Notes: generated by a model not told the origin, from the sequence alone. A stretch of 64,000 bases of DNA from Candidatus Eremiobacterota bacterium (GCA_019240525.1 JAFAYE010000001.1:531300-595299), one strand, 5' to 3'. Positions 53,742 through 64,000 are shown, counted from the stretch's first letter. Numbers and translations are program-made.

Positions 53742-53769
53742 CATTTCGTTCGAAAGGCTCAGGATGACA
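53721..53769. repeat. Repeat cluster C: two units spanning two converging stop codons
   Basis: Units CCTTCGACGGGCTCAGGATG (from 53721) and CGTTCGAAAGGCTCAGGATG (from 53747) lie between two converging genes. The first contains the TGA stop of the MaoC gene (53739-53741); the second contains, on the other strand, the TGA stop of the M28 peptidase gene (53759-53761). The repeat therefore ends both reading frames. Confidence 0.92.
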
Positions 53770-55891
53770 GGTGTTGATGCAGTGCGTCCGTTGCGAGCTG
53801 TGTCGCGCTAAGAATCCGCGCGTAGGCGCTTTTGATCACGGTATCTTTTCCGCCGGCAAAGACGATCTCGGGAAAGCTCGTATAGACGCGGTCGATCGTG
53901 TGATAATAGGCGTTTTCGAGCAAACCGCCGGAGAGATAGAATGCATCGCGCGACGCTTGCTCGTCTGCTGCGATCGCCTGCATGGAAACAACGTCGCCCT
54001 TCGCTTCGGCTTGCTGCATTGCAAGGTCGGTTGCGTGTGCCGCTTCTTTGTATCGATCCAATGCTTGGCGAAGCTCGCCGAAAGTTACGGCGCCGTTGCT
54101 CTTTTGAAAAACCGCGAGTTGTACCGGAAGTAAGTCTTCCAGCATCTGGGCGGGGATCTCTTCGATGCGAAGCGGCTCGACCGTTGCATTTGCCGCGCGC
54201 ATAGCTTGAATGCCGGTGACTTGTGCGGTGACGACCGCCTGTCGCATGCCGGGATCGTACGTACGCAGACCGTCGAGATTATCTTCGGCCGTATGATGGG
54301 CGCCGAAGTAACCATAATAGCCGTTCGACGTGCTTAAGACGCCGAGCATGTAGGAAAAGTTTTGATGATCGGAACCGCCCGTGATTGGATTGAGCAGCGG
54401 ATCGATGCGCTGATCGCGCATTCCCACCATACCCTTTCCGTCGGCGCCGGGTACGACGTCGCAGATTTGCTTCATGAAGGAATAGAGTCCCGGCGACGCG
54501 CTGACCACGAACGGGTCACCGGTCGTCAGCTGATCGGTATTGATGTACTGAAACAGATTTTTGCGCAACTGCGCGCCGTTCTGATAAATGTAGGCGGCCG
54601 AACCGAAGAGACCGAGTTCGTGACCGTCCCAAGACGCGATCTCGAGCGTCCGATTGGGTCGCCAACCCTGCTGGGCGAGAGCGTGGAAGGCGTCGGCATC
54701 TTGCAGAAGGACGGTCGTGCCGCTGCCGGGGTCGATCGCACCGAAGGTCATTGCGTCGCGATGGCTACCGATCATCACGATCGAGTCGGGCTCGCGCGCG
54801 CCGCGCATATCGCCGAAGACCAACCAAATCGTCTTGAGCTCGCGTTCAAATTTGCTGTGAATGTGAACGACGACGTTACCGCCGAAATGCGCAACGAATT
54901 CAAACATTGGATGCCAGGACTGCGGCACCACGCTACCGGTCATCGCGGATAGCAGCGACCGCGCCGTGCTCTGCGTGATGCTCAGCTCGGGGATGGTCGC
55001 GTGCGGTATCTCATTCCAGGCTTTGTGCGGCTCGCCGGGAATCGGCGCCCGACCGCCAATCGTCGGGTCGCCCGGCGGAAACATCATAAACCCTCGCGGC
55101 GACATGCCGCTCATACGCTCGGCCATGTTTTCATTCTTGTAGTTGCCGTTGGGCCACATGGCGCCGCCGCCATAACCGGTCGTCGCCGGCTCCATAAACT
55201 CCAAGATACCAATGACGCCGCGCTTGCGCAGTTCGTTGTACGGAATCCAGCTCGGATTGAGCGCTCGAAATCCGCCGCTGCCCGGAACGCTCAAGCGCAC
55301 GAGCGCGATGACGTTCTTAAGGCTGACGTGCCGGGCGTCGATTTCGGTTAAGTCGTCTTTGGTTGCGGCGTTCACGTAGACGACGGGCCCGGTAACGTCG
55401 CCGTCGCCGGACTCTTCAAGGAACGGTTGGCCCGCCATGATCTCCCACTTGGTGTGATGCCCCGACACGCCTTCGATCAGGTCGAAACTGACACGTCGCG
55501 GCGCAACCATCGAGAGGCTCTGCTGCAGCGGGCCGGTAAAGGCAACCTGATACGGCACGATGCGGGTCGCAAATCCGTCGGCATCGAGGCGGCGCTTCAC
55601 GTAGAGCGCCGTTGCATAATCGGCGGCGGAGCCGGCCCGATGCGGAACGGAGGACAAGTGGTGCTCGATCTCCAGCGCGTTGGCGCCGCTGGGCACGGCC
55701 ATCATCGTCTTCTCGGCTTGGAGCTCCGCCGCGACGGCGGGCCCCGCAGCCCAGCCGACGAGCGCAGTATCGGAGGAAACGGTCGATGGCGTTATCGCGG
55801 GTTGGGGCGCCGTCTGAGCGTCGGCGAGCACAACACTGCAAACGACTGCAGCGGATGAAACGAGCGCGATCGCGGCAACACAAGAACGCAT
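53759..55891 (-). CDS. M28B-type metallopeptidase (glutamate carboxypeptidase II-like)
   Basis: A 710-residue exported enzyme: signal peptide, a PA domain (about 130-330), an M28 zinc-peptidase domain and a transferrin-receptor-like dimerisation domain at the C-terminus. Zinc-site segments are SHRDAMTFGAIDPGSGT, INTDQLTTG and the terminal HHTAEDN. The usual catalytic EE pair (SWDAEEFGLLGS in GCPII) reads SWDGHELGLFGS: the zinc-binding second Glu is kept but the general-base Glu is His, so the activity may be altered or lost. It would otherwise trim acidic peptides in the periplasm. The ATG at 55891 begins the signal peptide; a TTG at 55936 is possible but less likely. Confidence 0.85.
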   Translation of the reverse strand: MRSCVAAIALVSSAAVVCSVVLADAQTAPQPAITPSTVSSDTALVGWAAGPAVAAELQAEKTMMAVPSGANALEIEHHLSSVPHRAGSAADYATALYVKRRLDADGFATRIVPYQVAFTGPLQQSLSMVAPRRVSFDLIEGVSGHHTKWEIMAGQPFLEESGDGDVTGPVVYVNAATKDDLTEIDARHVSLKNVIALVRLSVPGSGGFRALNPSWIPYNELRKRGVIGILEFMEPATTGYGGGAMWPNGNYKNENMAERMSGMSPRGFMMFPPGDPTIGGRAPIPGEPHKAWNEIPHATIPELSITQSTARSLLSAMTGSVVPQSWHPMFEFVAHFGGNVVVHIHSKFERELKTIWLVFGDMRGAREPDSIVMIGSHRDAMTFGAIDPGSGTTVLLQDADAFHALAQQGWRPNRTLEIASWDGHELGLFGSAAYIYQNGAQLRKNLFQYINTDQLTTGDPFVVSASPGLYSFMKQICDVVPGADGKGMVGMRDQRIDPLLNPITGGSDHQNFSYMLGVLSTSNGYYGYFGAHHTAEDNLDGLRTYDPGMRQAVVTAQVTGIQAMRAANATVEPLRIEEIPAQMLEDLLPVQLAVFQKSNGAVTFGELRQALDRYKEAAHATDLAMQQAEAKGDVVSMQAIAADEQASRDAFYLSGGLLENAYYHTIDRVYTSFPEIVFAGGKDTVIKSAYARILSATQLATDALHQHLSS

Positions 55892-55944
55892 CCGAGAAGC
55901 TTCGCTGCTAGGCGTTAAACTCCCGACGCGGCGCAACGCGGAGC

Positions 55945-55973
55945 TTGACAGCGGCGCCGGCTTGCGCTACCTT
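55945..55973 (+). promoter_or_regulatory. Promoter of the methyltransferase operon
   Basis: A perfect TTGACA (55945-55950) is followed after 17 bases by TACCTT (55968-55973). The operator palindromes begin at the next base, so a bound repressor would cover the transcription start. Confidence 0.55.
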
Positions 55974-56001
55974 TTAGTCACTTGACTAAGTCATCTGACT
56001 T
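55974..56001. promoter_or_regulatory. Tandem palindromic operator, probable TetR site
   Basis: TTAGTCA-CT-TGACTAA (55974-55989) is directly followed by, and shares two bases with, AAGTCA-TC-TGACTT (55988-56001). The overlap creates a third palindrome, TGACT-A-AGTCA. The repeated (A)AGTCAnnTGACT(T/A) half-site pattern 14 bases apart suggests two regulator dimers bound on adjacent faces. It lies between promoter and ribosome binding site of an operon that encodes a TetR protein. Confidence 0.7.
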
Positions 56002-56013
56002 ACCGGAGGGACT

Positions 56014-57102
56014 ATGGCTATCGAAATGACTGCCGCGCCTGTGCGCACGGTCGACCCCGACAAGCTCCATGCTTTTGTCGGCAAGGTCCTCGGCGATTTG
56101 GGCGCGGCTGCGAGCGCGGCGCTCACTATCATCGGAGACAAACTTGGGCTCTACCGCGAGCTCGCCAAAGGCGACGCGCTTTCCCCGAGCGAGCTTGCTG
56201 CACGAACGGGCACCGCCGAACGGTACGTCCGTGAGTGGCTCGCCAATCAAGCCGCGAGCGGCTACGTCGACTACGATCCGGCGACGCAGCTTTTTTCGCT
56301 GCCGCCTGAACGCGCGTTCATGCTCGCCGACGAAAGCAGTCCGCTCTTCATTCAGGGCGCGTTTCAACTCATCGAAGCGATGTCGGCCGCCGAACCTCAG
56401 ATCAGCGAGCGTTTTCGTACTGGGAAAGGTTTCGGATGGCACGAGCACGACCCGAGACTCTTCGAAGGAACGGAGCGTTTCTTCCGGCCGGGCTACAATG
56501 CCAACCTTATCGGCTCGTGGATACCGGCGCTCGACGGCGTTGAGGCTAGGTTGCGGTCGGGCGGGAAGGTTGCCGACGTAGGCTGCGGACTGGGTGCCTC
56601 GACGATTATCATGGCGCAGGCGTTTCCAAATGCCACTTTCCACGGCTTTGACTACCATGCGGGCTCCATCGAGTTGGCTCGTCGGCGCGCGCAGGCAGCA
56701 GGTGTCGCCGACCGTGTCGAATTTACCGTAGCGAGTGCGAAAGACTTCCCCGGTAAGGATTATGATTTGATTGCATACTTCGACTGTCTGCACGACATGG
56801 GCGATCCGGTTGGTGCTGCCAAGTACGTCCGCAGCGCTCTCGCGACCGACGGCGTCTGGATGCTGGTCGAGCCATTCGCGAACGATCGGCTCGAAGATAA
56901 CCTCAATCCAATCGGCCGGATCTACTACGCGGCTTCAACAATGCTGTGCACTCCGGGATCGTTGGCGCAAGAGGTCGGTTTGGCTTTAGGGGCACAGGCC
57001 GGCGAAAAGCGCCTGAGATCGGTCGTCGAGCAGGCCGGGTTGACGCATTTCCGGCGCGCGACCGAGACGCCATTCAACATCGTGTACGAGATCAAACGCT
57101 GA
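56014..57102 (+). CDS. Class I SAM-dependent methyltransferase with N-terminal winged helix
   Basis: A 362-residue small-molecule methyltransferase. Residues ~15-100 form a winged-helix dimer module (IIGDKLGLYRELAKG, LAARTGTAERYVREWLANQAASG) and ~185-340 a Rossmann domain with the SAM motif KVADVGCGLGASTIIMAQAFP, acidic end FHGFDYHAGSIE and motif DLIAYFDCLHDMGDP. The layout is that of the mycobacterial Rv2258c-type and O-methyltransferase-like enzymes of secondary metabolism. GGAGGG upstream supports the ATG. It leads an operon with a TetR gene and a hydrolase-glycosyltransferase fusion, all behind a palindromic operator. Confidence 0.88.
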   Translation: MAIEMTAAPVRTVDPDKLHAFVGKVLGDLGAAASAALTIIGDKLGLYRELAKGDALSPSELAARTGTAERYVREWLANQAASGYVDYDPATQLFSLPPERAFMLADESSPLFIQGAFQLIEAMSAAEPQISERFRTGKGFGWHEHDPRLFEGTERFFRPGYNANLIGSWIPALDGVEARLRSGGKVADVGCGLGASTIIMAQAFPNATFHGFDYHAGSIELARRRAQAAGVADRVEFTVASAKDFPGKDYDLIAYFDCLHDMGDPVGAAKYVRSALATDGVWMLVEPFANDRLEDNLNPIGRIYYAASTMLCTPGSLAQEVGLALGAQAGEKRLRSVVEQAGLTHFRRATETPFNIVYEIKR

Positions 57103-57716
57103 ATCGCGATCGCGTCGGTGTAACGGCTTCCCGCAGCGCGACCGAGCAGGCCTTTCTCGACGCCGCGGAACGCCTGCTCGTACGCGAGGGATACGCCACG
57201 ATCACCACCCGAAAGCTGGCCGCTGAAGCGAATGCCAACCACGGTCTAGTACACTACTACTTCGGCTCCATGGAGGAGCTCTTACTCCAAGTGCTCGAGC
57301 GCTTCACCGAGCGTATTCTCAAACGCCAGCGCGCAATGTACGAGGATCCAACCGCACCCTTCATCGACAAATGGCGGAAGGCCATGAACTATATCGACGA
57401 AGATCTCGCCGCCGGCTACCCCAAAATCTGGTACGAGCTACAGGCCTTGGCCTGGAATCGTCCTGAGTTTCGCAATAGGATTTTGCACGTCCAAGAGCAG
57501 TGGGAAATTGTTCTCAACGATGCGATCGGGCAAGCCCTTAGAGCATACGGTATCGATCGAAAGAAATTTCCGCCGGAGGCGGTGGCTACGCTCGTGCGTA
57601 CCTTCAACTTGGGGTTGTTACTCGAGCGGCTCAATGGCTTCGACAAAGGGCACGACTCGCTCTTGAGAATGATCGATCAGCTCTTGCAACGTTTGGAGAA
57701 AGAACGCCGCCGGTGA
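57099..57716 (+). CDS. TetR family transcriptional repressor
   Basis: A ~205-residue regulator with an N-terminal helix-turn-helix: ATEQAFLDAAERLLVREGYATITTRKLAAEANANHGLVHYYFGSMEELL, then an all-helical ligand domain (KWRKAMNYIDEDLAAGYPKIWYELQALAWN). There is no ATG, GTG or TTG in frame near the N-terminus; the only plausible start is the CTG at 57099, which overlaps the methyltransferase stop as CTGA, so a rare CTG start with coupled translation is proposed. Its target is most likely the tandem palindrome at 55974-56001, giving autoregulation. The next gene overlaps it by four bases. Confidence 0.82.
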   Translation: MNRDRVGVTASRSATEQAFLDAAERLLVREGYATITTRKLAAEANANHGLVHYYFGSMEELLLQVLERFTERILKRQRAMYEDPTAPFIDKWRKAMNYIDEDLAAGYPKIWYELQALAWNRPEFRNRILHVQEQWEIVLNDAIGQALRAYGIDRKKFPPEAVATLVRTFNLGLLLERLNGFDKGHDSLLRMIDQLLQRLEKERRR

Positions 57717-59797
57717 GGGCGTGCGAACCCGTGCAAACGGGAGTGGCGGTACGCGAGGGCGTGAGAATTGCCTACTCCGTTTACGGAAACGGCGAGCCGT
57801 CGGTGCTGCTCCTTCCGGCCTGGTCGGTCGTTCATTCGCGGATGTGGAAAGCACAGATTCCATATCTCGCGCAGCACGCGCGCGTCGTTACGTTCGATGG
57901 GCGCGGCAACGGACTCTCCGACAAGTCGCCGTCGATCGACTATTCCGACGAGGCGTTTGCGGCCGATGCCCTCGCCGTTCTCGACGCCACCGGCACGGCA
58001 CGCGCGACGCTCGTCGGTTTGTCGGCCGGTGCACGCTGGGGCGTCTTAGTCGCCGCACGGCATCCGCATCGGGTTGAGCGGCTGATCTGCATTGGCCCAG
58101 CCGTACCCACGGCTCCCCGCGACCCGGACTTCGTCGCTGCTATGGCCCGGTTCGAGCAACGCCTCGACTTCGCCGATGGCTGGTCGAAACTCAACCGCCA
58201 TTACTGGGAGGCCCACTACGGCGATTTTCTGGAGTTCTTCTTCAACGAAGCATTGCCCGAGCCGCACTCGACGAAGCCTTTTGAGGATTGTATCGCATGG
58301 GGCTCGGAGACGACCCCAGCGACCTTAGCGGCCACCGTCGTTGCGCCCCAAGTTTCCGCCGACGAGTTCGGGGAGTTGCTCGAAGCGATGCGCTGTCCGG
58401 TCACGGTCATTCACGGCGCCAACGACCGGATCGTTCCACCGGCGGCCGGGCGCGCGCTCGCCGATGCAACACACGGCCAATTTGTTCTGCTGCCGCACAG
58501 CGGCCATCTGCCTCAAGCACGCTATCCCGTCCGCATCAACGTCGAAATTCGGGATGCGATCGAACCGGGTAACGTCGCGAAGAAGCGGTCGCGCCGGCGA
58601 AAACGCGCCCTGTTCATCTCATCGCCGATCGGACTCGGCCACGCGCAGCGCGACGTTGCAATCGCGGGGGAACTTCGCAAGCTTCGTCCCGATGTCGACA
58701 TCGAGTGGCTCGCCCAGCATCCCGTTACCGAAGTGTTGCATGCCGGCGGCGAAACGATTCACCCTGCCAGCGGCGCGCTCGCCAACGAATCCGCCCACTT
58801 TCAGAGCGAGTGTACCGAACACAACTTGCATGCGTTCGCCGCGATTCGCAATATGGACGAAATCCTTATCAACAACTTTATGGTGTTCTACGACCTGGTT
58901 CGTGACGGAGAGTACGATCTCGTCGTCGGCGACGAGGCGTGGGACATCGATCATTTTCTCCATGAGAACCCGCGAGAAAAGCGGGTGTCCTTCGTTTGGA
59001 TGACGGATTTCGTCGGCTGGATTCCTATGCCCAGTGGGGGCGATTACGAACGAAGAATTACGGCGGATTACAATGCTGAAATGATCGAACACATCGAGCG
59101 TTTTCCGCGCTTGCGCGATCGATCGATCTTTGTTGGAGACCCGGAAGATATCGTCCCGAACGATTTCGGACCGAACCTTCCCCAAATTCGCGAATGGACT
59201 CGGACGCATTACGAGTTTCCGGGTTACATCACGGGATTCGCACCGCCGACCGACGACGAGCGCGCGACGATCAGGGAACAGTTCGGCTATCGGCCCGATG
59301 AGACCGTGTGCATCGTTAGCGTCGGCGGCTCCGGAGTTGGAAGCGCTCTTTTGCGGCGCGCCGTCGCCGCGTATCCCGACGCAAAACGACGTCTGCCATC
59401 GCTCCGGATGATCGCCGTCACCGGCCCGCGGATCGATCCGTCGACGTTGGCTGCGCCGAAGGGCGTCGAAGTTCGCGCGTACGTGCCGCAACTCTATCGG
59501 CACTTGTCCGCCTGTGACATTGCGCTCGTCCAGGGCGGCTTAACAACGACGATGGAGCTGACGGCGGCACGCCGGCCCTTCTTGTATTTTCCACTCCGAG
59601 AGCATTTCGAGCAAAACTTTCATGTGCGATATCGTTTAGAGCGCTACGGCGCCGGTCGGTGCATGGACTTCGCCGAGGCGAGTTCCGAGGCAATTGCGAC
59701 CGCGATGGTTGATGAGCTCAGCCGGACCCCGGCTTACCGCCCGGTAAGGACGGATGGCGCTGCAAAAGCGGCAAACCTGATCGCCGACGTGTTCTGA
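57713..59797 (+). CDS. Fusion of an alpha/beta hydrolase and a GT-B glycosyltransferase
   Basis: A 694-residue two-domain enzyme. Residues ~10-285 are an alpha/beta hydrolase with Ser104 (GLSAGARWG), Asp238 (HGANDRIVPP) and His265 (HSGHLPQ); a basic linker KKRSRRRKR (about 290-298) joins it to a MurG/UGT-like GT-B transferase that starts ALFISSPIGLGHAQRDVAIA and ends with the donor-site motif VQGGLTTTMELTAARRPFLYFPLREHFEQN (in parts). The triad and donor motif look intact, so both halves may be active. Cleaving an ester or lactone and glycosylating the product, combined with the methyltransferase encoded upstream, suggests modification or detoxification of a small hydrophobic compound. GTG start overlaps the TetR stop. 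Confidence 0.85.
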   Translation: MRACEPVQTGVAVREGVRIAYSVYGNGEPSVLLLPAWSVVHSRMWKAQIPYLAQHARVVTFDGRGNGLSDKSPSIDYSDEAFAADALAVLDATGTARATLVGLSAGARWGVLVAARHPHRVERLICIGPAVPTAPRDPDFVAAMARFEQRLDFADGWSKLNRHYWEAHYGDFLEFFFNEALPEPHSTKPFEDCIAWGSETTPATLAATVVAPQVSADEFGELLEAMRCPVTVIHGANDRIVPPAAGRALADATHGQFVLLPHSGHLPQARYPVRINVEIRDAIEPGNVAKKRSRRRKRALFISSPIGLGHAQRDVAIAGELRKLRPDVDIEWLAQHPVTEVLHAGGETIHPASGALANESAHFQSECTEHNLHAFAAIRNMDEILINNFMVFYDLVRDGEYDLVVGDEAWDIDHFLHENPREKRVSFVWMTDFVGWIPMPSGGDYERRITADYNAEMIEHIERFPRLRDRSIFVGDPEDIVPNDFGPNLPQIREWTRTHYEFPGYITGFAPPTDDERATIREQFGYRPDETVCIVSVGGSGVGSALLRRAVAAYPDAKRRLPSLRMIAVTGPRIDPSTLAAPKGVEVRAYVPQLYRHLSACDIALVQGGLTTTMELTAARRPFLYFPLREHFEQNFHVRYRLERYGAGRCMDFAEASSEAIATAMVDELSRTPAYRPVRTDGAAKAANLIADVF

Positions 59798-61422: not shown

Positions 61423-64000
61423 TTAAGAACGGGCGGTCGCGTAGGGCCGAAGCCCCCTGCGCGAAGATACACCGAGTTTCTGAAAGGCCGACCCGAGGTG
61501 TTTTTCAACCGTCTTATGGCTGATGAAAAGGCTATGAGCGATTTCCAGGTTGGAGTGCCCACTAGCGGCCAGTGCGACAATTTCGCGTTCCCGCGATGAC
61601 AGAACCGCTAGCTTCGCAGCGTCGACATCATTCGACGTCCCGATCTTACTGGGGCGCCCGGCTTCAAGGCGGCGGGCGTGGTGAGTGGCGCCGCACCGAC
61701 GATACAACGCAAGCGCGGACTCAAGTTCACCTGCGGTCTCGCGTGCCTCCGCCTCGAGCAGCGGCGTGCGAAAGCGTCGAAAGCCTTCCGCCGCCTCTTT
61801 CGCAAGGCGCTTCGCCTGCTCGAACCGTCCGCTCTCCAAATAACAGACCGCATCGAACAACGCGAGTGCCGGGCGCTCGAGCGAGTCTCCCATTGTGGCG
61901 GCGCGTGCGAGATATTCGCGCGCCCGGTCGCGGTCGGCGGCGGCGCCATGGCGTGCGATCGCGAGCAACGTTGGAACTTCGCCGCGTATAAGTTCGCACT
62001 GCGGCAGGACGCGATGTAGCAGCTCTTGCGCGTCCTTCGCGCGTCCCCGTCGGGCGAGTACCTCCGCAAAGCCGTAGCCGCACTCGATTTCCGGCGCCGA
62101 TACGATCGCACCTTCGAACCCATCAAACCACTTTTCGATCAGGTTCTCGTCGCCCACGTACGTTCCAACCGCCGTTCCGGCTCCCGCCGCAAAGACGATA
62201 TTGACGCGATTGTCGCTCGTTGTTGGAACCGCTTCCACCGCCTCGCGAGCAGCTTGCAGATCTCCGCTCAAGATGTAGCAGAGCGCCGCGGTTGCGTGCG
62301 CGCACTCCTCCGCGTGGCGGCTTCGCGTTTCGCGCGCAACGCGCAGGGCATGGCGAATATTCTCTCGCGCATCTTCGTGCAATCCAAACCACGCAAAGTA
62401 TTTCGCTGCATTGTAATACACGCCGGCGGTTGCGCCGGCACCGTGAGCACGCGCTGCGTCGAGCCAAGCTGCATGCTCGCGCCGAAACCCGTCAGCATCG
62501 CCAAATGCAGCGGCAATGGCGGCGGCAACATTATGGAACCGGACGCCGACGTCAGTCGTACCGGCCGTCGCTCGCCGATCGACCAGCGCGAGATGCGCTT
62601 GTGCGCGCGACGGAAAACGCAAGCCGATTGCAATCCAGGCAATGCCCAGATGTAGTCGAGCGCGCGCGAGATACTCAGTCGCATCGAGCCGTGCCAACAT
62701 GTGCTCCAAGGACGCGCTGGTGTCCGAGAGATTAATCGTGTATGCAGTCATCGCCGCCCGAACGCGGCACACCGCTTCACATTCGAATGCTCCGGCCGAG
62801 GCAAAGGCGTCAGCTGCGGCGTTATAGGCTGCCTGACCTTCTTCGGCCATGCTCGATACCAGGCGCAGGTTTGCAATCTTTTCCAGAATGGACCCGCGCG
62901 TCAGCGGTTCGATGCTATCGGCCTCGAGCGCGCGTTCGTAAAACGCGATCGCGTCGCCGTGCGCATAAACGTTCCGGGCAGCGTCACCGGCAAGTTCGTT
63001 ATACTGAACGCACAACTGATCATCGCCCGCGGCCCACCAATGATACGCCAATGCCTCGATCGACCGGTCGCTGCCCGGCGCGCGCTCGATCGTCAAGGCG
63101 ATCCGGCGATGGAGTGGGCGCAGTTCAGCAGCAAGAAAATCGTCGCAAATAACTTCTCGCGTTAAGCCGTGACGGAACCGGAAGCGATCGGGGCCAACCT
63201 CTTCAATCAGCTGGAAGTCGCGAGCACGCCGTAAGGTAAGAATCAAGTCTTTGGGCTCGGTCTCGGCCACTTCGGCAAGGAGATCGAGCGTAAACGTTCG
63301 TCCGATAGCTGCCGCTTGCGTTACGATGCGGCGATCGGTGCCTTCAAATGGCCGCAACCGTTCGAGCAATGTTGTTCGAACGCTTGGAGGGACTGCCTGG
63401 ACGTCGCCGCTATTACGCCGCTCCGCTGCTTCTTGCACCGCGTTTTTCAGTAACTCTTCGGTGAAGAATGGGTTGCCCTCGCCCGCTAATGCTATTGCTC
63501 GTCTCCTCTTAGCGCTCAAATTGAAGCCTGATAAGGCCTCATCGATGAAGGTCTGCAACTCGCTCCCTTCGAGCGGTCCGATGTCGATGCGGCCGGCGTG
63601 CGCAGAATGCCCGACCTTTTCTATGCCGGCGGCCGCGGGATGCCCCGCATGAAGGTCGGGTCGAAAGGACGCCAACACGAGCACGCGCATTCGGTGCAGC
63701 CGAGATCCAAAGTATGCTAATAAGTCCAGCGTTGCTGCATCCGCCCAATGCAAATCCTCGAGCACGACGACCAACGCTTTGCGGGAAGCAATATCTACGA
63801 AGCGCTCCACGATTGCCTCGAAGTATTGGCGCTTAGATTCGGCGGGGACAACTGCGGCGGCGGTGGACTCGGCGCTCGATATTGCATCTAAGATTGGGCC
63901 GTACGGACGCCCTCCGAACTCTCTACAAAAGCCATGCGTTATTCGCCAGCGAGAATAGGCGAGCGATCGGCAAAACTCCGAGATAAGCCGAGACTTGCCG
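61423..64000 (-). CDS. Large ATP-binding LuxR-family regulator, 5'-truncated by window edge
   Basis: More than 855 codons of a LAL/MalT-like regulator. The window edge holds the end of the Walker A (GKSRLISEF), then a Walker B-like VVVLEDLHWADAATLDLLAYF, a long TPR-like helical region (YYNAAKYFAWFGLHEDARENIRHALRVA), and a C-terminal LuxR helix-turn-helix: LSSREREIVALAASGHSNLEIAHSLFISHKTVEKHLGSAFQKLGVSSR. Such proteins use ATP and an unknown inducer to activate genes. It lies upstream of, and on the same strand as, the PQQ-propeller lipoprotein, 122 bases apart, a possible target. Confidence 0.9.
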   Translation of the reverse strand, partial: GKSRLISEFCRSLAYSRWRITHGFCREFGGRPYGPILDAISSAESTAAAVVPAESKRQYFEAIVERFVDIASRKALVVVLEDLHWADAATLDLLAYFGSRLHRMRVLVLASFRPDLHAGHPAAAGIEKVGHSAHAGRIDIGPLEGSELQTFIDEALSGFNLSAKRRRAIALAGEGNPFFTEELLKNAVQEAAERRNSGDVQAVPPSVRTTLLERLRPFEGTDRRIVTQAAAIGRTFTLDLLAEVAETEPKDLILTLRRARDFQLIEEVGPDRFRFRHGLTREVICDDFLAAELRPLHRRIALTIERAPGSDRSIEALAYHWWAAGDDQLCVQYNELAGDAARNVYAHGDAIAFYERALEADSIEPLTRGSILEKIANLRLVSSMAEEGQAAYNAAADAFASAGAFECEAVCRVRAAMTAYTINLSDTSASLEHMLARLDATEYLARARLHLGIAWIAIGLRFPSRAQAHLALVDRRATAGTTDVGVRFHNVAAAIAAAFGDADGFRREHAAWLDAARAHGAGATAGVYYNAAKYFAWFGLHEDARENIRHALRVARETRSRHAEECAHATAALCYILSGDLQAAREAVEAVPTTSDNRVNIVFAAGAGTAVGTYVGDENLIEKWFDGFEGAIVSAPEIECGYGFAEVLARRGRAKDAQELLHRVLPQCELIRGEVPTLLAIARHGAAADRDRAREYLARAATMGDSLERPALALFDAVCYLESGRFEQAKRLAKEAAEGFRRFRTPLLEAEARETAGELESALALYRRCGATHHARRLEAGRPSKIGTSNDVDAAKLAVLSSREREIVALAASGHSNLEIAHSLFISHKTVEKHLGSAFQKLGVSSRRGLRPYATARS

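Follow-up and report, generated by a model that had tools for sequence, protein, structure and literature searches.

The window analysed here, a 64,000-nt stretch of a Candidatus Eremiobacterota assembly (GCA_019240525.1, JAFAYE010000001.1:531300-595299), carries at 55945-59797 on the + strand three genes whose consecutive stops and starts overlap. They encode, in order, a methyltransferase (MT), a TetR-family regulator and a single polypeptide in which an alpha/beta-hydrolase is fused to a GT-B glycosyltransferase (GT). We propose, with a probability of roughly 0.55, that the three genes are a ligand-inducible cassette for modification of a small molecule, the core of which would be hydrolysis followed by glycosylation. 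The comparison with other genomes establishes the domain make-up of the proteins, the intact catalytic residues, the conservation of the fusion, the linkage of the MT and the pairing of TetR with its operator. The parts are of known kinds, but the fusion-centred cassette appears to be undescribed; an earlier account of this DNA (the sequence-only reading) had held that no system of such composition was known, and no description of one, or of any hydrolase-GT fusion, was found in the open-licence literature searched.

Both halves of the fusion protein keep intact catalytic motifs

A domain search of 57713-59797 returns Abhydrolase_1 and Glyco_tran_28_C, the latter just above its cut-off in the window (E 5e-5, residues 537-673, 23.9 bits against a cut-off of 22) and with 37.1 bits in the fusion of L045 (L with a number denotes a comparison locus). 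The AlphaFold2 model of the whole 694-residue fusion (mean pLDDT 90, pTM 0.90) has a single short flexible linker. Ser104, Asp238 and His265 are correctly placed for the alpha/beta-hydrolase fold. In an alignment of 65 homologous fusions and that of the window, counted over rows with a letter at the position, Asp238 and His265 are invariant (66/66 each), and the nucleophile at position 104 is Ser in 47 of 63 rows, the other 16 having Cys. The GT half has the features of the GT-B fold, namely two Rossmann-like halves, a Gly-rich N-terminal loop and a C-terminal nucleotide-sugar motif (GLGH, GGSGVG, HFEQ), and the motifs SSPIGLGH-x-x-RD, GGsgvG, GGL-x-T-x-MEL and PL-x-x-HFEQ are retained across fusions. 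The sequence-only reading had called the triad intact-looking and the second half a GT-B glycosyltransferase; model and alignment uphold the first call, fold match and motifs the second, and the GT-B domain looks active. It had also named beforehand, as evidence against itself, a fusion domain lacking active-site residues, and the alignment gives the opposite: the Ser/Cys-Asp-His triad and the GT motifs are intact in all copies that cover them.

The Cys nucleophile is found in the DUF1326-PpoB2 clade of Eremiobacterota (L045, L047, L049, L050, L051, L053, L055 and others), which has a GICTEAW-type elbow. In L044 (7817-9268), L052, L054, L122, L124, L126 and L210 the fusion is directly preceded or followed by an additional copy of its hydrolase domain (~40-52% identical to that of the window), which suggests that this half has diversified. 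GTs of the same kind, but more distant, occur without a hydrolase in L160, L184 and L185.

Foldseek places the hydrolase half nearest to aryl esterases, an acyl-homoserine-lactone-degrading esterase, the macrolide esterase EstX and PcaD/HsaD-type enzymes, and the GT half nearest to CalG1 (E 2e-14), OleI, SpnG, YojK and related natural-product transferases. These neighbours raise the possibility of an antibiotic resistance protein that would combine a macrolide-type esterase and a macrolide-type GT, two classical inactivation routes for one drug class, in one chain: the hydrolase has matches to models of macrolide esterases (best E 5e-14) and to structures of EstX, the GT matches a macrolide GT model (E 4e-8) with OleI and OleD among its nearest folds, and the operon looks TetR-inducible. 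The scores are, however, far under the curated NCBIfam cut-offs (52 against 420 bits for the esterase, 33 against 260 bits for the GT), and the fusion therefore belongs to neither macrolide family; generic aryl esterases score equally well, and the MT and the other partner genes would be left unexplained. We regard this explanation as improbable. As to CAZy placement, Glyco_tran_28_C is marginal in the window and the macrolide GT and MJ1255 models are far under cut-off.

The fusion is widespread and patchily distributed

The fusion spans at least five phyla, being found in Eremiobacterota, Thermoleophilia, Actinomycetes, Alphaproteobacteria, Rokubacteria, Deinococcus and a Desulfobacteraceae metagenome-assembled genome (MAG). 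Over its full length the window protein is 82% identical to that of another Eremiobacterota MAG, 60% to that of a Thermoleophilia MAG, 53% to Rhodospirillaceae, 52% to Rokubacteria, 50% to Demequina and 37% to the Desulfobacteraceae MAG (Rhodospirillaceae and Rokubacteria also being MAGs). When whole genomes were sampled per class or phylum with the GT part as query, it was found in 13/149 genomes of the window's phylum and in 0/17 congeners, in 45/399 genomes of the class of the Thermoleophilia MAG, 7/289 of the class of the Rhodospirillaceae MAG (Alphaproteobacteria), 9/95 of the class of the Rokubacteria MAG and 23/395 of the class of Demequina (Actinomycetes). The patchy spread within Eremiobacterota is as expected for an accessory, exchanged gene, judging from these sequences. 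A phage or defence origin was considered and rejected, as the fusion has no strong match among phage records and PADLOC gave a generic methyltransferase match only.

This distribution bears on a second explanation, in which the cassette makes or remodels an endogenous lipid, glycolipid or signal. The MT would then modify the carboxyl of a fatty acid or lipid-like compound, the hydrolase would serve as an esterase or acyltransferase, and the head sugar would come from the GT. For FmtB, a methyltransferase of Bordetella, methylation of free intracellular fatty acids has been put forward (PMC5426589), so that lipids are within reach of small-molecule MTs; moreover, the GT also matches GT28 and MJ1255-type models and the operon contains no transporter. 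Yet any kinship of FmtB to the window MT is conjectural, PMC5426589 citing Rv2258c in its references only, the GT fold is nearest to natural-product GTs, and so patchy a cassette is unlike a core lipid pathway. An endogenous role is in our judgement unlikely.

Two further loci deserve mention. On a plasmid of Deinococcus sp. QL22 the fusion (L056, 12001-14034) lies in one frame with one in-frame stop and is annotated as two genes; this points either to decay of the copy or to an error in sequencing. TetR and tandem operator-like sites lie upstream of the fusion there. The class of the Rokubacteria MAG includes genomes (L039, 1789-7073; L221; L222) in which two fusions of different subfamilies, with 48% and 59% identity in the GT part, stand in tandem.

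TetR is paired with a tandem operator

TetR_N, the helix-turn-helix of the family, is recognized in the regulator, and two tandem palindromes, O1 and O2 (Table 1), lie at its own promoter between the putative -10 element and the ribosome-binding site. They are the sole perfect 7-N2-7 inverted repeats less than 30 bp apart in the window. The pattern, with up to two mismatches allowed, occurs twice there against 0.04 expected by chance, and in the 2.8-Mb genome it is found at this promoter with one further, weaker match. A wider TetR regulon is thus not indicated, a scan of 23 genomes likewise giving one place per matching genome.

The operator tracks the regulator across phyla. In the first sample, with two mismatches allowed, it is present in 24 of 26 loci with a close TetR (at least 45% identical) and in 0/41 without, with one stray site in 908 kb; of the two exceptions, one comes from a contig that is truncated and the other has a site with three mismatches. 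The second sample gives 2/2 and 0/26, and the pooled count, window included, is 27/29 against 0/67. Since the operator stands 5' of whichever gene is first (MT, DUF1326, SBP56 or TetR itself) and so follows TetR and not the first gene, it belongs to TetR. Tandem sites recur in L036, L121, L123 and L147. In Demequina and several alphaproteobacterial loci the TetR is more distant, and the same place holds, as read by eye, the palindrome TTCGGTCGGTCGACCGAA or variants of it; TTCGGTCGGTCGACCGAA or ATTCGTTCGAACGAAT occupies the operator position upstream of TetR in L038, L040, L162, L163 and L165. The repressor and the tandem palindrome at the start site, both already called in the sequence-only reading, thus appear from comparative sequence to be a matched pair, and the operon is very likely inducible through TetR.

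The methyltransferase belongs to the TnmJ/Rv2258c family

The first gene had been called a small-molecule-type MT, and its domain matches agree: Methyltransf_31 (E 1e-17, 64.2 bits against a cut-off of 27) and the Rv2258c-like winged helix HTH_65 (E 4e-16, 59.6 bits against 24.1). By far the nearest solved relative is TnmJ (PDB 8g5s, E 4e-65; ~35-40% identity in the MT family alignment), followed by Rv2258c (PDB 5f8c, E 6e-42). TnmJ and TnmK2 are named as cofactor-independent oxygenases (PMC11181247), and tnmJK1K2L is one transcription unit in tiancimycin biosynthesis (PMC9464397).

The family of the MT thus admits a different chemistry, in which the MT-like and hydrolase-like proteins form a cofactor-free oxygenase pair that uses O2 on an electron-rich aromatic, the GT capping the product, as for TnmJ/TnmK2. 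Besides the closeness of TnmJ, a TnmJ-like protein is here again paired with an alpha/beta hydrolase in an operon (TnmK2 reportedly has this fold), and the GT resembles enediyne and polyketide GTs. Loss of the acidic residue of S-adenosylmethionine (SAM) motif I (D/E-x-G-x-G-x-G) is assumed to mark TnmJ-type oxygenases: TnmJ has HVGSGGG, whereas the window MT has an intact DVGCGLG, kept across 24 relatives. The hydrolase triad is intact as well, and TnmK2 is absent among the best 60 solved matches of the fusion. An oxygenase pair is accordingly rather unlikely, though the closeness of TnmJ makes it a rival worth testing, and because the MT family keeps the acidic residue that TnmJ has lost, genuine methyl transfer is the preferred, sequence-based assignment.

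The methyltransferase is a frequent but interchangeable partner

A neighbourhood census of 96 loci in two sets, the window included, gives an MT beside the fusion in 41 (22 in the first set, with the window, and 19 in the second). The adjoining MTs are 51-87% identical. Most often the MT gene is immediately upstream and on the same strand; in some loci it is divergent, and once it is downstream (L165, an alphaproteobacterium, in the order TetR-fusion-MT). At L205, MT, GT and hydrolase are three separate neighbouring genes, an arrangement that supports the fused halves serving one pathway. The trio of MT, TetR and fusion recurs in relatives; the sequence-only reading had proposed such a survey, and the absence of the trio from every relative, which would have told against that reading, is not what was found. 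As a fixed three-gene unit, on the other hand, the trio does not stand, for many loci lack the MT and have other partners or regulators. Elsewhere the slot before TetR-fusion is held by DUF1326-PpoB2, by SBP56 (L124, L126) or, in L083, by a protein whose AurF match is sub-threshold; nothing usable on DUF1326/DUF2182 was found in the open-licence literature searched. TetR in turn is replaced by LuxR-type (LAL) or SARP-type regulators or by a different TetR with a different operator, and MT-type loci without TetR often have a large AAA/LuxR-type or SARP-type regulator beside the MT. On a quick GT-domain tree, in which many deep branches are weakly supported, the number of changes of state is at least nine for the MT and ten for TetR, so that partners and regulators have been exchanged. 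By sequence comparison, then, the fusion is the constant element, the MT a frequent, interchangeable partner and TetR one of several regulators.

Might the MT merely adjoin the TetR-fusion pair by chance? TetR-fusion alone is common and many fusion loci have no MT, but the MT is beside the fusion in 19 of 21 Actinomycete loci, and among Thermoleophilia it is found (E <=1e-80) in 21/40 genomes with the fusion and 1/40 without (Fisher p 4e-7), adjacent in 18 of the 21. With the overlapping reading frames of the window added, the census contradicts a chance neighbourhood, which we consider highly improbable.

Proposed function

In the proposed cassette, TetR would bind the tandem TTAGTCA-N2-TGACTAA palindromes and repress the operon, its own gene included, a step for which the comparative evidence is strong. 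By analogy with the behaviour of the family, TetR would be released by a small molecule, probably the substrate itself or a related compound. To judge from motifs, fold and their fusion, the N-terminal hydrolase would cleave an ester, lactone or similar bond through Ser-Asp-His, and the tethered GT-B domain would move a sugar from a nucleotide-sugar donor onto the group so exposed or onto another position of that molecule. The MT would act in the same pathway, a link that the census supports; the simplest role would be to methylate a hydroxyl or carboxyl with SAM as donor. No core biosynthetic enzyme is among the immediate neighbours of the operon (M28 peptidase, PQQ-propeller protein, hemerythrin, topoisomerase IB and a LuxR-type regulator), for which reason inactivation or conjugation of an encountered compound is favoured over a full natural-product pathway, and the balance leans towards such a compound being conjugated or detoxified.

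Several observations weigh against this proposal. The many fusion loci without an MT imply that methylation is not obligatory, and DUF1326-PpoB2, SBP56 and the AurF-like protein share no obvious chemistry with the MT. A quarter of the fusions have a Cys nucleophile, and the second Gly usual in the elbow is often missing; not every member need therefore be a plain esterase. The Fisher p for the co-occurrence of MT and fusion in Thermoleophilia is uncorrected for relatedness.

More tentatively, the cassette may be one case of a widespread, undescribed system in which the fusion swaps a functional group for a sugar within one molecule and is combined with interchangeable enzymes (TnmJ-like MT, DUF1326-PpoB2, SBP56, AurF-like) and interchangeable local regulators, and in which MT and hydrolase may together carry out an unusual reaction, cofactor-free oxidation for example. 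Sequence models name the halves of the fusion only, although it spans so many phyla. The strict pairing of TetR and operator is a ready reporter for finding the inducer, hence the substrate, and the recurrent pairing with a TnmJ-like MT makes it testable whether cofactor-free oxygenases reach beyond enediyne pathways.

Operon layout and gene starts

That three overlapping genes have the repressor in the middle, as first described, is confirmed by the coordinates (Table 1) and the CTGA and GTGA overlaps. The TetR gene has no well-fitting ATG, GTG or TTG start, and the mechanical open reading frame call, 56946, is deep within the MT gene. The CTG at 57099 overlaps the MT stop (CTGA) and is followed by LNR-D/E-R-x-G, which is kept in L036 and L043, where the conserved reading begins at a CTG or TTG likewise overlapping the MT stop; since the reading from 57099 is the conserved one, the gene likely spans 57099-57716 with a CTG start. 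The GTG start of the fusion overlaps the TetR stop by four bases (GTGA). The putative promoter has a good -35 and a poor -10 (3/6 matches) and was not accepted by a consensus promoter scan.

Table 1. Positions in the window of the operon genes, control elements and fusion domains.
Feature	Position	Strand	Basis and remarks
Putative promoter	55945..55973	+	TTGACA 55945-55950, 17-nt spacer, TACCTT 55968-55973; direct sequence reading
Operator O1, TTAGTCA-CT-TGACTAA, TTAGTCACTTGACTAA	55974..55989	.	Perfect 7-bp inverted repeat; cross-phylum footprint
Operator O2, TAAGTCA-TC-TGACTTA, TAAGTCATCTGACTTA	55987..56002	.	3-bp overlap with O1, period 13; comparative
Ribosome-binding site GGAGGG	56005..56010	+	Direct sequence reading
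Class I SAM-dependent MT, Rv2258c/TnmJ-like, N-terminal winged helix, 362 aa	56014..57102	+	Pfam, solved-structure matches
TetR-family regulator, 205 aa, probable CTG start	57099..57716	+	TetR_N E 1e-12; frame conservation
Alpha/beta-hydrolase::GT-B fusion, 694 aa, GTG start	57713..59797	+	Domain models, structure prediction, alignment
Hydrolase domain, residues 1-283	57713..58561	+	Abhydrolase_1 E 4e-27, residues 29-268
Triad codons	Ser104 58022-58024, Asp238 58424-58426, His265 58505-58507	+	Alignment and model
Flexible basic linker, residues 284-295	58562..58597	+	Residues 286-294 below pLDDT 50; length varies among relatives
GT-B domain, residues 296-694	58598..59794	+	Motifs SSPIGLGHAQRD, GGSGVG, VQGGLTTTMEL, PLREHFEQ

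The M28-family peptidase (53759-55936, - strand) is divergent from the operon; its mechanical TTG start is ~38 bp from the operator, so TetR could affect this gene too. In the nearest relatives the peptidase gene was not seen next to the operon. Downstream, at 61423-63810 on the - strand, is a large LuxR-type regulator with AAA and TPR regions. Similar regulators adjoin many MT-type loci elsewhere, but the match to these is mainly through the DNA-binding end or at 26-35% identity, pointing to another subgroup; as the match is weak or partial and the window has its TetR system, a functional link to the operon is not claimed.

Comparison with known systems

TnmJ is an MT-like protein of the same Rv2258c-like family as the window MT and is likewise encoded in a multigene unit, tnmJK1K2L, but its motif I lacks the acidic residue, it is a cofactor-free oxygenase with no GT fusion, and it belongs to a full enediyne cluster. 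Rv2258c of Mycobacterium tuberculosis, though more distant from the window MT than TnmJ, has the same two-domain make-up of winged helix and SAM fold; we know of no published substrate or fusion partner for it. The natural-product GTs CalG1, OleI/OleD, SpnG and YojK/YjiC share the GT-B fold of the fusion (TM ~0.6) and the C-terminal acidic-Gln donor motif (here HFEQ), but are 13-19% identical to its GT and are not fused to a hydrolase, and their usual His-x-Gly motif reads VQGGL in the window. Aryl esterases, the PcaD enol-lactonase and HsaD-type hydrolases have the fold and triad of the hydrolase half at 18-26% identity; they are stand-alone enzymes, whereas the nucleophile elbow of the fusion is non-canonical and carries Cys in a quarter of the family. 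The LipJ-type alpha/beta-hydrolase::adenylate cyclase likewise joins an N-terminal hydrolase to an unrelated catalytic domain, and the NCBIfam LipJ model matches the fusion with E 9e-18, far below its cut-off; the second domain of LipJ is a cyclase, that of the window protein a GT.

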